From Branchiostoma floridae (lineage: Eukaryota; Chordata; Leptocardii; Amphioxiformes; Branchiostomatidae), in contig NC_049986.1 in NCBI RefSeq assembly GCF_000003815.2, positions 14,335,933 to 14,399,932 of the forward strand: a stretch of 64,000 nt of DNA, written 5' to 3'. Both the position numbers and the translations under genes were made by a program. Below are positions 25,395-35,357 of the stretch, piece by piece (the stretch's first letter is position 1; each line of letters begins with the position of its first letter). The notes under the pieces were generated by a model that searched no databases, had not been told where the DNA came from, and saw only the letters and a program-made list of their open reading frames with translations.

Positions 25395-28300
25395 ATGGCG
25401 GACGGAAGTAGTTTTGTTGCAGTATTGTCCGTCTTTCTCCTCGGTTTGTGCCAACATGGGAGCAGCCAACAACCTAAGCCGGTAAGAACACAGTTACAGG
25501 GTATTTGCTGTTCTCTGTGGTGAAAATTTGTTAGATATAAGCGCCACACTTACTGTCATAACTGTTTTCTAACCTTCCGTCGTCGACTAAGTCAGATGTC
25601 AGTCCATTTGTGCCGTGTAACGCTAACACAAACTCTTGTGTTCCTGGCGATCTGAAGGACAATTCTATGCCTGTTCTTTACTTAAGTTACAACTGACACA
25701 TTATAGGCTATATCACTTCAACTGTTCTGGAACTTCCTTAACTCTTGGTGTTGGGATAACAATGCATTGTCTTTGTTGACATAACGGTGCAGTCAAACGA
25801 GTTCTCGGTTGTGTAACGTAATGTTTACAATTTTTTTAGACTAATAGAACCTTTTACAGTGTTATTCACTTTGGAATTTTCGTGTCCACAACATTTACTT
25901 GGGATGCTCAAATTGTTGTTTTAAAGAAATGTTCACAGCGATTCAGAAACAACTGACTAAACAACAGGTGCACTGTATTCCCCAGGGAGCAGTAATATCG
26001 ACTGGCAAACACAATGAATTGATCTGTTTGATGTGTTCAATTCGTGTGGAAAAATGTCTTTTGTTCTTCTCTCTTCCAGGTTTCACCTCTTATCGTAGAA
26101 GAACAACTTCTGTATGTGGGTGGCACATGGGGAGAGGTCCATACATACAGGTGTGTTCAGTAAAACTAGTATTTTTATAAGTATTAAACATATCAGGTGA
26201 CAGTTGCCTGCAAGTAACGAGCAAAGGAAACTCTGTTGTTTATTCAAGACCAAGAGGGACATAAATGCAGCATGTAGAATCGTATGCCAGAGAACAGATA
26301 CTTAAGCAACTTGAAACAGTTAGACTTCTAATCTACTACCTTCTGCACCTGCTTTGGATACAGATCTTGTCTAGCATGTGCTACCTGAAACATCTGACCA
26401 TTTCTAAAATCTATCCTGTTGCCTCAGTAACTGTCTTCTGTATCTTATCACCAGTATGTTTAAGCTTGAACAAAATTAGACTCTTTTTACTAAATTGCAG
26501 CAGACATACAAATTGTATTTGTATGTCATATACAAATGTATATGCAATTTGAATTCGGTTTTGTGACACTTTTGTAGAGACAATCCTATAGTCCAAAGCA
26601 CAGGTCCCACACTGTTGATAGTCCAATTCCAATTTTAGTATTCTATAACATATAATGTTAAGAACAGATCATAGTGAAACTTTTAGGTGGGTTTGGGTCA
26701 GGGCTTTAGCCAGCTCAAAATTTTTTTCCGTCAGCCAATTACAATCGTCGTGAAAACCGCGAAAATTAATTAGAAGGACTGAACTGAGACCTTGAAAAAC
26801 GGGTTTTAATGAGATTATCGTATGCGAAAGGGCGCCGACACACATTGTCAACAATCATAACAATAGCAAAACAAACGGTGTGTGGTTTTTACGGCCATGG
26901 ACGGCGTCCCCAAGCCGCCTGTAGCTTCCACCAAGGATTTTTGTCCGTCAAGGTTGACGGATTGGTTTTAAAATTTTTCCGTCAGACGCAGCAAATTTCC
27001 GTCAATTGACGGAAAAACGGACGCTGGCTAGACCCCTGGTTTGGGTTCTAAGTTCTAATATATATTATTATTCATCAGAAACTCCAACTACTATTTGTGA
27101 GCTGCATTTATTCAATCTATGCTATACTCGAGTTACAATAGTACACCTGAACCCTGTTCCCTGATCCTCCAGGATCCCCATCATGGTGGGCACTCCCAAG
27201 GGAAACCTCATCACCGTGGTGGAGGCCAGGCAGTACAGCGGAGGGGACTCAGGGCCAAAGTTCATGGCCATCAGGAGGTCAGAGGACAAAGGTCAGGGTG
27301 GTTTTGTAGTAACAGTTGTTTATTTGGATCCCATCAGTAAATTATTTCAATTCTCTTCCTGACACACAAAAGCCTACATCTATTTGTATATGAATGATAT
27401 GATAAAATACTCAATAACGATGGCTATTTATATTAACCATACAATGTGTCATGTCTGATGATAAAGGAGGAAAAAAAACTATTACTTATAAGCCCAAACA
27501 GCCAATTAGAAAGTTCCTATTTGTATTTTTTTCCTCATGTCTTGCAGGTTTCACTTGGTCGGAGATGGACTATGTCCTGAATGATGGCACCTTCCAGGAT
27601 GGCATGAACCTGGGCACCATCCTGGTGGATGAAATCACCAGCGAGGTCTTCATCTTCTACACCCACTGTGCCCACTATGTCAAGTGTGAGGTGTCTACCA
27701 CCTACATGGTGAGCAGTAGGGACGAAGGCAAGTCGTGGAGTCGTCCCAGGAACATCTCACAGGAGATCGGTACCATGATGTTTGCACCAGGGCCTGGCTA
27801 TGGGCTACAGGTGGGTGGCAGAAGACAACCCTTTTTTGGCAGAACCTTGTGTTCTGAGCACTCTCATGTTTACCTTTAATTTCTCTAAACATCTCTGTCA
27901 TTTACCTAAAAATTTATCACTCAGATGTCAGCAAGGTTGAAACAATTATAAAAATGTTGGATTCTACAAACTGTTTTTAAGAAGAAAAAGATACAATTCT
28001 TCTTCATTGAATATTATGCATGTGGTCTTTCATGGCAAGATGTCAGTGCCTTTCCTGTTCTTCAACAATGATCGATTTGGCACTGGGTTTGTACAGTAGG
28101 AGCTCAAGCATTCTTGCTTCTATTACTAAGCTAATTTGAAAGCATTCTTGTTGTGTCAACCACATGCTCCTCTGACTGTCCCTTCTGTAACTTTCATAGA
28201 AAAAGTATGCGCCTCACAAGGGGAGGCTGTTTACATGTGGGCACTCCACACTGAACATGAACGCCATATCATGTCTAGTCAGCGACAATCATGGCAAAAA

Positions 28301-30027
28301 CTGGATTTAGTATGACGCAGTCAAGAGTATACCCTACGGTCAGCACAAGAAGATGGGAGACTTCTGTCCAGGGGAACCTCAGGTACATGCCTTTAAACAT
28401 TTTGTCTTACATTCTTCCCTCCCTGCAGAAAAGGTATGCACCCCACAAGGGCAGGCTGCTGACGTGCGGCCATGGCACGTTGGCCGGGGACGGTGTGTTT
28501 TGCTTGATAAGCGATGACCACGGTGCCCACTGGAGGTACGGCGGTGTCATGAAGAGTATTCCCTACCTGCAGGCCAAGAAAAGGGGGGACTTTGACCCAG
28601 ATGAAAACCAGGTACACACCTCCACAACCCAGGGCACAAAACACGACCCTCCCATCTTTCCCTCTTTGCTGTCCCAGTTACATGTATTACATTTTTACCT
28701 TTAGGGAACTGGGCCTTGTTTTCTGTATATCTCCAGTAGTTGAATCAAATGCTGTAACAATATTCTTTTTCCATCTTTCTATTCAATTTTGAACAATTTT
28801 CCTTTCCTTGTATATGGATTTGTCTCCCAAGATTGTTGTAACATAAGAATCCACTGATGATTTGCATCTCAGTCCAGCTAATTGCACAGTACATGTATAT
28901 GATTAAGACCCTGTTCATACATTCCCCTTAGCCTGTGGAGCTCCCAGATGGATCTATCATAGTCAACGCCAGGAACCAGTACCTGTACCACTGTCACTGC
29001 CGCATCATCATGAGGAGTTACGATGGAGGGGAAACATTCCCCCTGGAGCATCTGTACTTCGATGAGACTCTGATTGATCCAGCAATGACCGCTGGGGCTT
29101 ACTACAGCAACGGGGTCAAGTACTTCAGCAATACAGCTAGTGAGGTCCATCGTAAGTATATGTTCTGACTTGTTAACTTCAGCAATACAGCTAGTGAGGT
29201 CCATCGTATGTATATGTTCTGACTTGTTAACTTCAGCAATACAGCTAGTGAGGTCCATCGTAAGTATATGTTCTGACTTGTTAACTTCAGTAACACAGCT
29301 AGTGAGGTCCATCGTAAGTATCTGTTCTTGTGTACTTCAGTAACACAGCTAATGAAGTCAGTAACACAGCTAGTGAGGTCCATCATAAGTAGCTGTTTTT
29401 GTTTACTTCAGAAACACAGCTAGTGAGATCCATTGTAAATGTCTACTCATAATCATATGGGCTTTAGCAATAATGCTAGCAATACTGTTCGTCATAAGTA
29501 GCTGTTCTTATGTACAAGGCATGGAAGATACAAAAATGAACAATTGCCCTTTTGAGATGTTCTTACAAAAAGGTATATTTGCTGTGGAATGGAGCAATTA
29601 TGGACATTTAGTCTGAAATTTAGTCTGAAATCTGAAATGTTAGTAATTATTGGCAAATTTAGTTTCTGTTTAGGTGAGAATTGGCTGTTTCTGCTTTAAC
29701 ATGATAAAAAGTGCTGTGGATATATGTAGACATGGTGTCTTCAATCAGTTTCTTCTCTTAGGTTTTCTCCCAAATACTGAACTGTGTATTTATGCCATTT
29801 TCCTCCCAGGTTCCAACATGATGCTGAGGTGGAGTTACGACAACGGGACGACGTGGCCTGGTGCATTACCCATCTGGGACAAAGCTGCGGCCTACTCCAC
29901 TCTCATGATGCTGCCCACAAACGACGTGGACGACCAACAACATCTGTACCTGCTGTATGAGAAAGGAGTCAACAGTTCAGCAGAAAGCATCTCCCTGGTG
30001 AAGATTAGTTTGTATGGAAACCTATGA
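25395..30027 (+). CDS. NEU1: NEU1-type lysosomal sialidase, copy A
   Basis: Exo-alpha-sialidase that removes terminal sialic acid from glycoconjugates in lysosomes. Exons: 25395-25481, 26080-26150, 27173-27291, 27548-27810, 28429-28611, 28932-29151, 29810-30027, all phase-consistent, about 390 residues. The start ([20 protein letters not shown]) is a signal peptide. The sialidase arginine motif is YRIP (split by intron 2). Asp-boxes: [38 protein letters not shown] carries the conserved Glu; [21 protein letters not shown] (Tyr region) and the ending VKISLYGNL match human NEU1. A degenerate duplicate of exon 28429-28611 lies at 28200-28382 and would introduce a stop. AATAAA is at 30042-30047. 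The gene lies tail to tail with a paralog. Confidence 0.93.
26699..27038. mobile_element. 340-base hAT-type MITE with perfect 8-base target duplication
   Basis: Ends CAGGGCTTTAGCCAGC and GCTGGCTAGACCCCTG (inverted, two mismatches); CAGGG ends are typical of hAT elements. GTTTGGGT flanks it on both sides (26691-26698 and 27039-27046). No transposase. It sits in NEU1 (+) intron 2, an intron absent from the paralog. Confidence 0.92.
28200..28382 (+). pseudogene. upstream duplicate of the fifth NEU1 (+) exon, with in-frame TAG
   Basis: Acceptor TTTCATAG, 61 codons, donor GTACAT: the same length and phase (0-0) as the exon at 28429-28611. It encodes [18 protein letters not shown] and SDNHGKNW, but codon 37 is TAG (28308-28310) just after the Asp-box. 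Only 46 bases separate it from the next copy. It is either a decayed alternative exon, a stop-introducing regulatory exon, or a sequencing/allelic error. Confidence 0.85.
28429..28611 (+). other. downstream (canonical) copy of the duplicated NEU1 (+) exon
   Basis: Acceptor CCTGCAG, 61 codons, donor GTACAC. It encodes [13 protein letters not shown] and SDDHGAHW, then GDFDPDENQ, matching human NEU1 (CGHGTLERDGVFC). This is the copy used in the model of copy A. Confidence 0.92.
29121..29420 (+). repeat. minisatellite duplicating the 5' splice site of NEU1 (+) exon 28932-29151
   Basis: Unit of 54 bases carrying the exon end TACAGCTAGTGAGGTCCATC, the donor C|GTAAGTA and intron sequence; near-perfect copies begin around 29126, 29180, 29234 and 29288, then decayed copies to about 29420. 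Reading through the first donor soon meets TGA, so only the first donor is productive. Confidence 0.92.
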
Positions 30028-31694: not shown

Positions 31695-34600
31695 TCATAG
31701 CTCTCCATATAAACTAATTTTTGCCAGAGAAATGGTGGAGTAAGCATTTTTCTGTCCCTTCTCGTACAGAAGATAGATGAATCTGCTGTCCTCAGCGTCT
31801 GTGTGCAGCATCATGAGGGTGGAGTAGGCTGCAGCTGCAGGCCAGACTTGGTACGATCCAGCCCAGGTCGTACCATTGTCATAGCTCCAACGTAGAGTCA
31901 TATCCTCCCCTGGTACAAAAAATGTGCATGCCTATTATGTGAAGTATGTTATATGTATCATTCTGTAGCTCCCATGTCTCAATAAGTCAAGGTATGCCCT
32001 GGTGTGCCACGAATATGAAAGACTGACATTTAAAGAAGATGCATGTTTGAAACTTGATGATGACACAATTTCATTTGGGTTATTTCAACTTAAGCAACAG
32101 AGGACTGATAAAAAAGTTTGTTTACAGAAAACCATTTGTGCACAGAAATAGAGTTTAAAATCATTATGCTATGCAGATTTCAAGCACTACAAATTCCTAC
32201 CAACAAACAGACTTACTTGACTTGTCGTTGGCAGGGTTGCTGAAGAACATGACTCCATCATGGTAGTACAGCCCTGCAGCCACTGCCGAGTCCACCAGGG
32301 TCTCATCAAAGTACAGGTGCTGCAGGGGGAACGTCTCTCCGCCATCAAAACTACGGAACACGATACGGCAGCGGCAGTGGTAGTGGTACTGGTTCCTAGC
32401 GTTGATCACTATGGATCCGTCAGGAAGTTCTACTAGCTGGGGGAAAAGAATGAAAACATGTTGAATAGTTGAAGAGATGCAATCATTTACTTAGTGAGAA
32501 ATGCCAACAGGACACAAGTCTCACCAAAAAGAAGTTACTCAATCAACTGGATATGATTTGGGCCAGATCCCAACCTGTTCTCCAATTTAATACTCTAGTA
32601 GATCTCTTTTGCATATCAATTCACAGCTAGGATATAAAAATTCTCTCCAACAAGATTTCTCCAGAGTCACTGACGAAAGACACCAGATAACTGTCTGAAA
32701 CGTCTGACCGTTTCCAAAATCATATCTAGTTCCTTGAGTAATTGCTTTTTGGTGTATCTTATTACCTGCATATCTAACCTTCATTGACAACACAAGTCTC
32801 CCTTGTGTGGCTCTAACTTCTACTAAGAACAATGACAAGTAAAGTCCATACCTGGCTCTCATCTGGATCAAAATCGCCCGTCTTTTTTCCCTGATTGTAA
32901 GGAATGCCCATCATGGCCGAGACACTCTTCCAAGTTTTCCCGTGGTCATCACTCGCTATGCAGAAAACACCATCTGCCGGTAGGGTGCCGTGTCCACAGG
33001 TAAAAAGGCGACCTTTATATGGCGGGTACTTTTTCTAGAAAGAGAAGAATGAACGTGCAATGTGATATCTACCTCAGACTCCCCTGGAACAAAGTCTCCA
33101 AGTTTATGTCGGCCGGTAAGGGGAAGAGACAGAAGGGCCTGTCCTGCTGCCCAGGTTTTGCCGTGGTCATCACTGAAGGCACAAGTGATCATCCTGTTTA
33201 GTGGACTGGAATGGCCACATGTGACCAAACGACCTTGGTAGGGTGCATGCTTTTTCTGGAAATCAAACATGGAGTAAGGACAGGTTATGAGACTACAGTG
33301 TTTTCAGCAGTTAAGGTCAGAAATCATAATTTCTTTCCTTTCTGATCAGCAAATTTCATGACCTTTCGGCTTATTTTTCAAATCTTCACAAACTTTTTCC
33401 AAGCTCCAACCTTTACTGTCAAACTGGCCTTTATATAGATTGTATTAAATACAACATCTTTTATTTGTATGTTTTCAAAAGTCCTGGCACCTTAGCCCCA
33501 AACAGTGCAGTCTACACAGTATTCCTTGTAAGAGTGCAAGGACAAAGACAACAGATAGACTTGCATGAAGAAAAGAAACAAAACAGAAAGTATCATATCT
33601 GGAACATGCACTTTTGCAAGCTGAAAGTAAAGCTGACAGATTTCTTGTTTCTGTAGCATTAAGCAACAAAAATTCTTATCTATGCTTTAAAGTCACATCA
33701 TAGCTTCATTTTCACAGATTCAATTACACAATCCTGTCTTCAATCCCCCCAAAATTACCTGTATTCCAAACCCTGGTCCCGTCTCAAACTCCCTGCCATG
33801 CATCCTGATCATGCCTGTGATGTTGACAGGCTGTCCCCAGGTCTTCCCATCGTCTGTACTGTTCACCACGTACGTTGTAGAAAACGTACACTTGTCAAAG
33901 TGAGGACAGTGAGAGTAGAAGATAAACATGGTCGCAGTTTCATCGTCTACGAGGATGGAGCCCAGTCCAATACCGTCGAAGTAGGTTCCATCATCTAACA
34001 CATATCCTAGTGGCTGCCATGTCATACCTGTAAGATAATCATAAAATAGAGGTCTCATGTACTTAAGGATAACCAAACCTTAAGCACATGTAAGAGCCCA
34101 CCATACATATCGATAATTGTGGGTGTTCTTTCCGGTGCAAGTGGAACAAATAATAACCAGATGTTCAGCTTGGACACATGTAGTTACTATTCAGTACAAA
34201 CCTGGTGTGTTACATGATGAGGTTGGTATTCAATGCAAAAAAATAAATTTGTCTTTTCACCTTTGTCCTCTGACCTGCGGATGGCCAGAAATTTTTCCCC
34301 AGCATCGCCGCTGTTGTACTTCCTGGCTTCACACACGGCGACGAGGTGCCCCCTCGGAGTACGGGACAGCAGTGGGATACGGTACGAACTCACGCCACCC
34401 TGGCCTCCACCGGCGAGCCATATTATCTGCTCCTCCACCAACAATGGGCTGACCTAATACACACACGATATGGTAGAGAAAATAACAATGAATTCTGTAT
34501 CTGGTCCTTGATCTCTTATGTGTATTGTTGTCTGCAATTAACATTGATTTTATAACACCTTGATAATTTTGTTTCATTTTCTGCTGATAGATCCAAATCT

Positions 34601-35357
34601 GAGAACCAAAACTACCGAAGTTCTGACTTCGGGATGAAAAAAGCTAACAAAACATATAAGCTCAAAATTCCCAGCCAGATCATTATCAACAAGGTCTATC
34701 TACCCTGCATACGAATTAGAATCCGGAGTCAGTTTCTTTCGAACTTGCAGAAAAAAACAAAAACGTCGATTTGAAAAACTCACTGGTGCATTGTGCATGC
34801 TGACAGTGACAGTAAGACACTACTAGTAGTGATCTTCTAAAAGTTACGACGTACTGGTTTGTAGTACTTGGTTTGAAGGTAACATGGAAGCCGACCATTT
34901 TGTTATAATTTACAAATCAGACAGGACACAGATTTCGTCAATTGTGCTGTATCTTTATGCACATAGTCACATACCCCAATGGTGCCAATTATCTTCAAAC
35001 CATGGTCGTTCAATTAAGAGGGGATGTGTCCAGCTATTTTAGCTAGGAAGTTTGTTTACAAAGGGAGGTCAACGTCCTTGATAATGGTTTACGCAAGGCA
35101 AGAAGCTGAATGTTTTATAGTACACAGGCGTAGCGTAGCTGAGATTACTAGTACACAAAACTGTACGTCGTTAATGGTTTATAGCGACTCGTTACATGTG
35201 CTATGAAAGCCTATACCGACTATAACTTAGCGTGGTTATAGCAACAAACTTTATCTCTTACTTTACGCTGCGATGATCTCCAAGAAGAGGCGAATGAGGG
35301 CAAAACAGACACCAAAACAATCACTGAAACGATCACAACAAGCTTCACTTCCGCCAT
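31695..35357 (-). CDS. NEU1: NEU1-type lysosomal sialidase, copy B
   Basis: Paralog of copy A. Minus-strand exons: 35357-35262, 34453-34261, 34027-33759, then one of 33255-33073 or 33034-32852, then 32436-32217 and 31909-31695. The signal peptide is MAEVKLVVIVSVIVLVSVLP. It has the YRIP motif, Asp-boxes NSTDDGKTW, SDDHGKTW, SFDGGETF and [34 protein letters not shown], and the ending AKISLYGEL. Exon 34453-34261 corresponds to two exons in copy A, so an intron was gained or lost. Exon 32436-32217 is 220 bases, as in copy A. Both versions of the duplicated exon are open here, predicting two isoforms of about 390 residues that differ in one Asp-box blade. Confidence 0.93.
32523..32757. mobile_element. 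long inverted-repeat MITE (family C) in NEU1 copy B
   Basis: Arms of the type ACCAAAAAGAAGTTACTC ... GGATATGATTT and AAATCATATC ... GTAATTGCTTTTTGGTGT, followed by TATCTTATTACCTG. Related sequences occur at about 14600-14650, 26290-26460 and 50057-50150. Confidence 0.7.
32852..33034 (-). other. downstream copy of the duplicated NEU1 exon, copy B
   Basis: 183 bases, acceptor TTTCTAG, donor GTATGG, phase 0-0. It encodes CGHGTLPADGVFC, SDDHGKTW and GDFDPDESQ, the vertebrate-like version. It is separated by 38 bases from the upstream copy. Confidence 0.92.
33073..33255 (-). other. upstream copy of the duplicated NEU1 exon, copy B (open)
   Basis: 183 bases, acceptor TTTCCAG, donor GTAGAT, phase 0-0. 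It encodes CGHSSPLNRMITC, SDDHGKTW and GDFVPGESE. CGHS and PGE are shared with the upstream copy in the + gene rather than with its own neighbour, so the two versions were separate before the gene duplicated. Confidence 0.9.

Follow-up and report, generated by a model that had tools for sequence, protein, structure and literature searches.

How a gene can make use of two versions of the same coding exon with only 38 bases between them, and what the choice of one or the other would mean for the encoded enzyme, are the questions raised by a NEU1-type sialidase gene of Branchiostoma floridae, here called copy B, found in the window (i.e. the whole 64-kb stretch of DNA that was analysed). In the first-pass annotation this gene had been described as carrying two homologous 183-base, phase 0-0 exons, each with its own splice sites, on the two sides of such a spacer. 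The description is borne out, with 29 of 61 encoded residues identical between the two exons, and the gene is laid out as follows.

35262..35357, minus strand: candidate exon 1 of copy B, for a signal peptide (96 bases, phase 0 donor; predicted from hydrophobicity only)
34261..34453, minus strand: exon 2 of copy B (start taken from a tblastn match)
33759..34027, minus strand: exon 3 of copy B
33073..33255, minus strand: exon 4a of copy B, derived type (183 bases, phase 0-0, open; SDDHGKTW Asp-box and catalytic Glu kept)
33035..33072, minus strand: spacer of copy B, 38 bases (holds the 4a donor GTAGAT, a putative branch site, TTCAT, and the 4b pyrimidine tract with its AG)
32852..33034, minus strand: exon 4b of copy B, vertebrate-like type (183 bases, phase 0-0, open)
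32217..32436, minus strand: exon 5 of copy B
31695..31909, minus strand: exon 6 of copy B, stop included (stop codon 31697-31695)

In the following, the two exons are referred to as B4a and B4b, and their counterparts in the adjoining gene, copy A, as A4a and A4b. The sequence 5' of B4a ends GATTTCCAG and GTAGAT lies directly 3' of the exon, while GTATGG lies directly 3' of B4b; with an AG before and a GT after each of them, both exons have their own acceptor and donor, and each is open in the frame that runs on from exon 3, which ends at 33759, into exon 5, which starts at 32436. Their peptides align over all 61 positions without gaps, and B4b is found by tblastn of B4a against the 64-kb window with E = 2.8e-17, so that their likeness is not a matter of chance. 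An origin of the pair by chance or as an assembly repeat can be dismissed, as frame, length and borders agree between two exons that differ at 87 of 183 bases.

This layout is best explained, with a probability of roughly two in three, by a tandem-duplicated pair whose members would be spliced as alternatives, mutual exclusion being enforced by their spacing. Several features of mutually exclusive exons are found here, namely homologous neighbouring exons of the same length and phase, splice sites of their own and less than 50 nt from donor to branch point. U1 at the 4a donor and U2 at the 4b branch site would not both find room on 38 bases, so that each transcript would join exon 3 to either 4a or 4b, and then to exon 5. 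We infer that 4a is used in copy B, from which two proteins would derive that are alike save for 61 residues; the swapped segment would hold the catalytic Glu, kept in both, together with a pocket-side loop and positions that differ.

The same pair is present in copy A, which adjoins copy B in the window on the plus strand (candidate ATG at 25395, stop at 30025-30027), the two genes being arranged tail to tail.

28200..28382, plus strand: exon 4a of copy A (183 bases, AG/GT borders intact, one in-frame TAG at codon 37 of 61)
28383..28428, plus strand: spacer of copy A, 46 bases (CTTAC, with its A as base 27, is a candidate branch site chosen by eye)
28429..28611, plus strand: exon 4b of copy A (183 bases, open, AG/GT borders)

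Two further details of copy A may be recorded. An intron lies within the stretch that forms the single exon 2 in copy B (26080-26151 and 27165-27290, plus strand), at the codon that precedes IP in the sequence RIP; and the 3' end of exon 5, with its donor CATC/GTAAGT, is repeated in a 54-base tandem array of 3.8 copies (29122-29426, plus strand), which overlaps a 71-base array, so that a series of nearly identical donor-like sites results.

The Asp-box reads SDNHGKNW in A4a and SDDHGKTW in B4a. A stop well inside an internal exon leads to nonsense-mediated decay of the mRNA; that of A4a lies 24 codons upstream of the end of the exon, so that the 4a-form mRNA of copy A should be degraded, and the choice of 4a would in this gene be at most an off switch or a decaying relic. 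The TAG itself may represent a switch, a relic, a variant or an assembly error. Together, the two genes would then consist of a productive pair in copy B and, in copy A, of a pair with a stop-containing alternative, either an off switch or a relic.

How common such pairs are can be judged from the other genes of the family. At least 16 loci match exon 5 and were taken as NEU1-like genes (513 Mb genome, 431 contigs), a number that is a minimum because counts for large families are lower bounds. The exon 5 matches are found at C8 14.117-14.178 Mb, where 11 of the 16 loci form one cluster, at 12.93-12.97 Mb, at 14.36 Mb (the window) and at C7 11.44 Mb; for comparison, five NEU1 copies are given for B. 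floridae in the accessible text of PMC3431349. Only two of the 16 genes, A and B, carry the exon 4 pair. Local searches with E values up to 0.01, which a very diverged or very short copy could escape, revealed no second exon 4 in the remaining 14, all of which have a single exon 4, split by an intron in one case. This gene (L023, C8 12.97 Mb) had been considered as a third with a duplicated exon 4 on the hint of a tblastn match, and was rejected when its sequence proved to be that of one intron-split exon 4 (4218-3645 of L023, minus strand, C8 at ~12.972 Mb). There, exon 4 is interrupted after SDDHGN by a 391-base intron, which opens with an array of units of ~36 bases that are similar to the end of this exon, with the donor AACAG/GTGTGT at the start of the array, and which looks like a new intron formed when exonic sequence with an AGGT in it was duplicated in tandem. 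The length of exon 4 is exactly 183 bases in A4a, A4b, B4a and B4b, and ranges from 177 to 192 among the single exon 4s of the other genes. In PMC3431349, the six-exon structure of NEU1 is described as quite uniform among deuterostomes, S. kowalevskii excepted; the main text of that paper contains no word starting with 'splic' and no 'duplicated exon'.

As to which exon is ancestral, identity to NEU1 of the mouse, the only vertebrate in the exon 4 comparison, amounts over 61 positions to 37 residues for A4b, 34 for B4b, 29 for A4a and 21 for B4a. The 4b exons are the closer ones, hence 4b can be regarded as the conserved type and 4a as the derived one, and the annotation of the downstream exon of copy B as the vertebrate type agrees with this comparison.

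Whether the pairs of A and B go back to one duplication or to two is a separate issue, compatible in either case with the splice reading. A single shared origin appears to be favoured, while not proven. In all five analyses (protein, 16 rows; codon, 15; DNA, 15; then protein, 19, and codon, 18, with all genes) the best unconstrained tree joins A4a with B4a. On the protein trees, support for this split is 55.5 (SH-aLRT) and 77 (bootstrap), and 58.7 and 77 with the enlarged set. The two pairs also have layout, order and a sub-50-base spacer in common. Moreover, one glycine, which we take to be G227, is absent from both 4a exons and present in 17 of 17 other rows. A second candidate mark, a glycine preceding the catalytic Glu, occurs only in A4a and B4a among 16 rows, but was discarded as a private 4a feature because C14117 and C14123 have it too. 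When the two spacers are compared over their best ungapped 20 bases, they are no more alike than the intron ends next to unrelated exons. Two independent exon duplications, or copying between genes, are a doubtful but possible alternative to the single origin: a tree constrained to two duplications is worse by 1.7 to 7.8 log units, which the AU test does not reject (p = 0.27 for protein, 0.12 for codons and 0.37 for DNA; 0.27 and 0.12 with all genes), and in a tree built from the remaining exons copy B is sister to C14178 (bootstrap 91), a gene with a single exon 4, so that a single origin requires at least one loss.

The relation between the two genes also bears on whether B4a is used at all. 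It would be unlikely, on balance, that B4a is itself a relic, skipped or rarely used and heading for the state reached in copy A, with only the 4b sialidase being made. The stop in the sister exon A4a demonstrates that such an exon can be lost or turn into a non-productive choice, and the donor of B4a is weak: with a matrix built from 32 donors of 15 genes of the family and applied leave-one-out, GAG/GTAGAT scores 3.6, the lowest of all, and the donors of B4b, A4a and A4b score 11.0, 9.0 and 7.7, respectively. Ranked by general donor frequencies, it comes third from last, the identical exon 4 donors of A4b and C1293 scoring lower. Against this stand the acceptor of B4a, which at 14.7 is the fourth best of 17 (B4b, 13.5, is fifth; A4a, 6.0, second lowest), and an exon that is open, exactly 183 bases long and intact at its AG/GT borders, in which the Asp-box is perfect and neither the catalytic Glu nor either of the cysteines has been lost.

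Selection on the 4a exons was analysed with a codon model of our own on 15 rows (mouse, C14117, C14123 and C1297 left out; the stop codon of A4a masked). A single omega for all rows is 0.157. With A4a and B4a as joint foreground, omega is 0.178 on the single-origin tree (2dlnL 18.3 versus omega = 1) and 0.167 on the two-origin tree (2dlnL 13.0). These values are well below 1, from which it follows that the 4a class has been under constraint for much of its history, A4a included despite its stop. Part of the joint signal comes from A4a, the exon that now holds the stop, for which omega is 0.03 (2dlnL 5.95) or 0.09 (12.5) when taken alone. For B4a alone, constraint is probable, though short of proof: its omega of 0.32 (2dlnL 2.90, single-origin tree) or 0.36 (2.50, two-origin tree) is borderline, and the exon has evolved faster than the background (0.32 versus 0.15), as a relic might; the stem of the 4a clade, too, gives no signal of its own (2dlnL 0.35). 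In neutral simulations that began with B4b or A4b (3000 runs for each setting), the frame stayed free of stops in just 8-10% of runs after 87 changes and in 14-16% after 60, which argues against neutral drift of B4a, yet the outcome depends on how many changes are assigned to the exon, since at least 29 residues were kept in no run at 87 changes, in 6-7% at 60 and in 91-93% at 45. As some of the 87 differences are due to changes in 4b, the simulation lends support without being decisive.

That the two exons of copy B would exclude each other rests on their distance and not on the reading frame, because joining them without the spacer (183 + 183 bases) keeps the frame. As had been proposed, retention of the 38 bases shifts it, and a stop is then met within 4b. 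Introns 3 and 4 of the family range from 120 to 1379 bases (30 lengths from 15 of the 16 genes, C1297 being left out), which makes the spacers of 38 and 46 bases outliers. The best yUnAy site in the 38-base spacer, a candidate chosen by eye, is TTCAT, whose A is base 23 of the spacer, 22 nt from the donor; in so short a spacer, any branch point lies less than 50 nt from the 4a donor. In the parts of PMC7969005 and PMC5740500 available to us, a distance of less than ~50 nt between donor and branch point is given as too short for both snRNPs, and 57 human clusters (9%) are listed in the latter as potentially of this steric type. Human introns of 43, 49 and 56 nt are described as spliced in the accessible text of PMC4463651, the first two being G-rich and without functional branch sites. 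The 38-base spacer is shorter than every published case met with; that of copy A, at 46 bases, exceeds the spliced human intron of 43 nt. The claim that the spacer is too short for 4a to be joined to 4b holds to the extent that 38 bases fall below the published limits; these are vertebrate figures, the validity of which in amphioxus is assumed, and a literature search yielded no intron minimum for amphioxus among the matches listed. Inclusion of both 4a and 4b, through splicing of the spacer as an ultra-short intron or through its retention, so that the exons would not be strictly exclusive, is very improbable: the frame of the joined exons, the very short introns spliced in some systems and the lack of a known amphioxus minimum would allow it, whereas the length of the spacer, the position of the candidate branch site, the frame shift and stop that follow on retention and, in all probability, the poor prospects of a doubled blade segment to fold as a six-bladed propeller stand against it.

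If, then, 4a and 4b are spliced as alternatives in copy B, both forms would be recognizable sialidases. In both, the sialidase propeller domain extends over the whole protein; the 4a and 4b forms score 94.7 and 96.7 bits, respectively, with Pfam BNR_2 (cut-off 31.4), and 41.3 and 49.4 bits with BNR_3. The full 4a form matches mouse NEU1 (8du5, Sialidase-1) over 1-359 with 335.9 bits, the 4b side having been compared as exons 3-4b-5. For NEU2, E218 is given as catalytic, Y179, Y181 and L217 are among five inhibitor-contacting positions and loop 4 comprises 183-190, according to the available text of PMC3431349. All 19 aligned rows have the catalytic Glu, and B4a retains it along with the Asp-box and both cysteines. 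From an alignment made by eye, we take the Glu of exon 4 to be E218 of NEU2 and E264 of human NEU1. On the same basis, Y179 of NEU2 presumably corresponds to H220 of NEU1, present in B4a and B4b; Y181 to T222, a serine in B4a; L217 to D263, a glycine in both 4a exons; and loop 4 to the stretch after the CGH motif, which is GTLPADG in B4b and SSPLNRM in B4a. On this matching of positions by eye, 4a, while keeping Glu, Asp-box and cysteines, is predicted to alter residues bordering the sialic-acid pocket on its glycerol and N-acetyl side, and the substrate range of the 4a and 4b forms would be expected to differ.

A more far-reaching proposal can be put forward only tentatively, namely that one NEU1-type gene might give rise to two enzymes in which a pocket loop is swapped around a constant Glu, with two sialic-acid specificities, and that the sister pair might act as an on/off switch through the stop in 4a. 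If true, the same splice device would be found in two functional states in two adjacent genes.

The kind of device is well known, and is new for the sialidase family as far as searched: no mutually exclusive exon pair in a sialidase is reported in the open-access literature searched by titles and abstract openings, a search that left subscription papers mostly outside. Steric exclusion is the mechanism of exons 2 and 3 of alpha-tropomyosin, where a shifted branch point is placed too close to the donor upstream of it; copy B resembles this case in its steric exclusion, and differs from it in the protein concerned and in relying on a tiny intron instead of a shifted branch point. Closer in kind is OGDH, also an enzyme gene with duplicated exons, in which, in the accessible part of PMC7969005, one or the other of exons 4a and 4b is used, exclusion is enforced by branch points at only 25-41 nt from the upstream donor, and the isoforms differ enzymatically. 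The OGDH intron, however, is 118-131 nt long in birds and mammals and has distant branch points, whereas the whole spacer is of 38 (46) bases here, and the OGDH alternatives are proven by transcripts, whereas those of copy B are predicted from DNA. U2AF1 exons 3 and Ab are, in the available text of PMC5224494, homologous tandem exons in alternative use, with both forms made; the gene encodes a splicing factor and the choice involves repression and noncanonical branch points, in place of the sub-50-base spacer of copy B. For A4a, the nearest parallel is SCN8A, for which a mutually exclusive exon with an in-frame stop is reported as a real event in the part of PMC5740500 consulted; the partner exon resembles A4a in its stop, but belongs to an ion channel, and the corresponding event in A4a is a predicted one. 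With vertebrate NEU1 (mouse 8du5), copy B has family, length and catalytic Glu in common, and the vertebrate protein contains the 4b-type segment; to the six exons with which NEU1 is described in the accessible text of PMC3431349, copy B adds a duplicated exon 4. The 38-base spacer is nearly as simple as steric exclusion can be, and copy A, which has the same layout and a single stop in addition, allows an open pair to be compared in nature with one that contains a stop. Since the swapped segment comprises the catalytic residue and a pocket loop of a glycosidase, any effect on the choice of substrate would be directly measurable.
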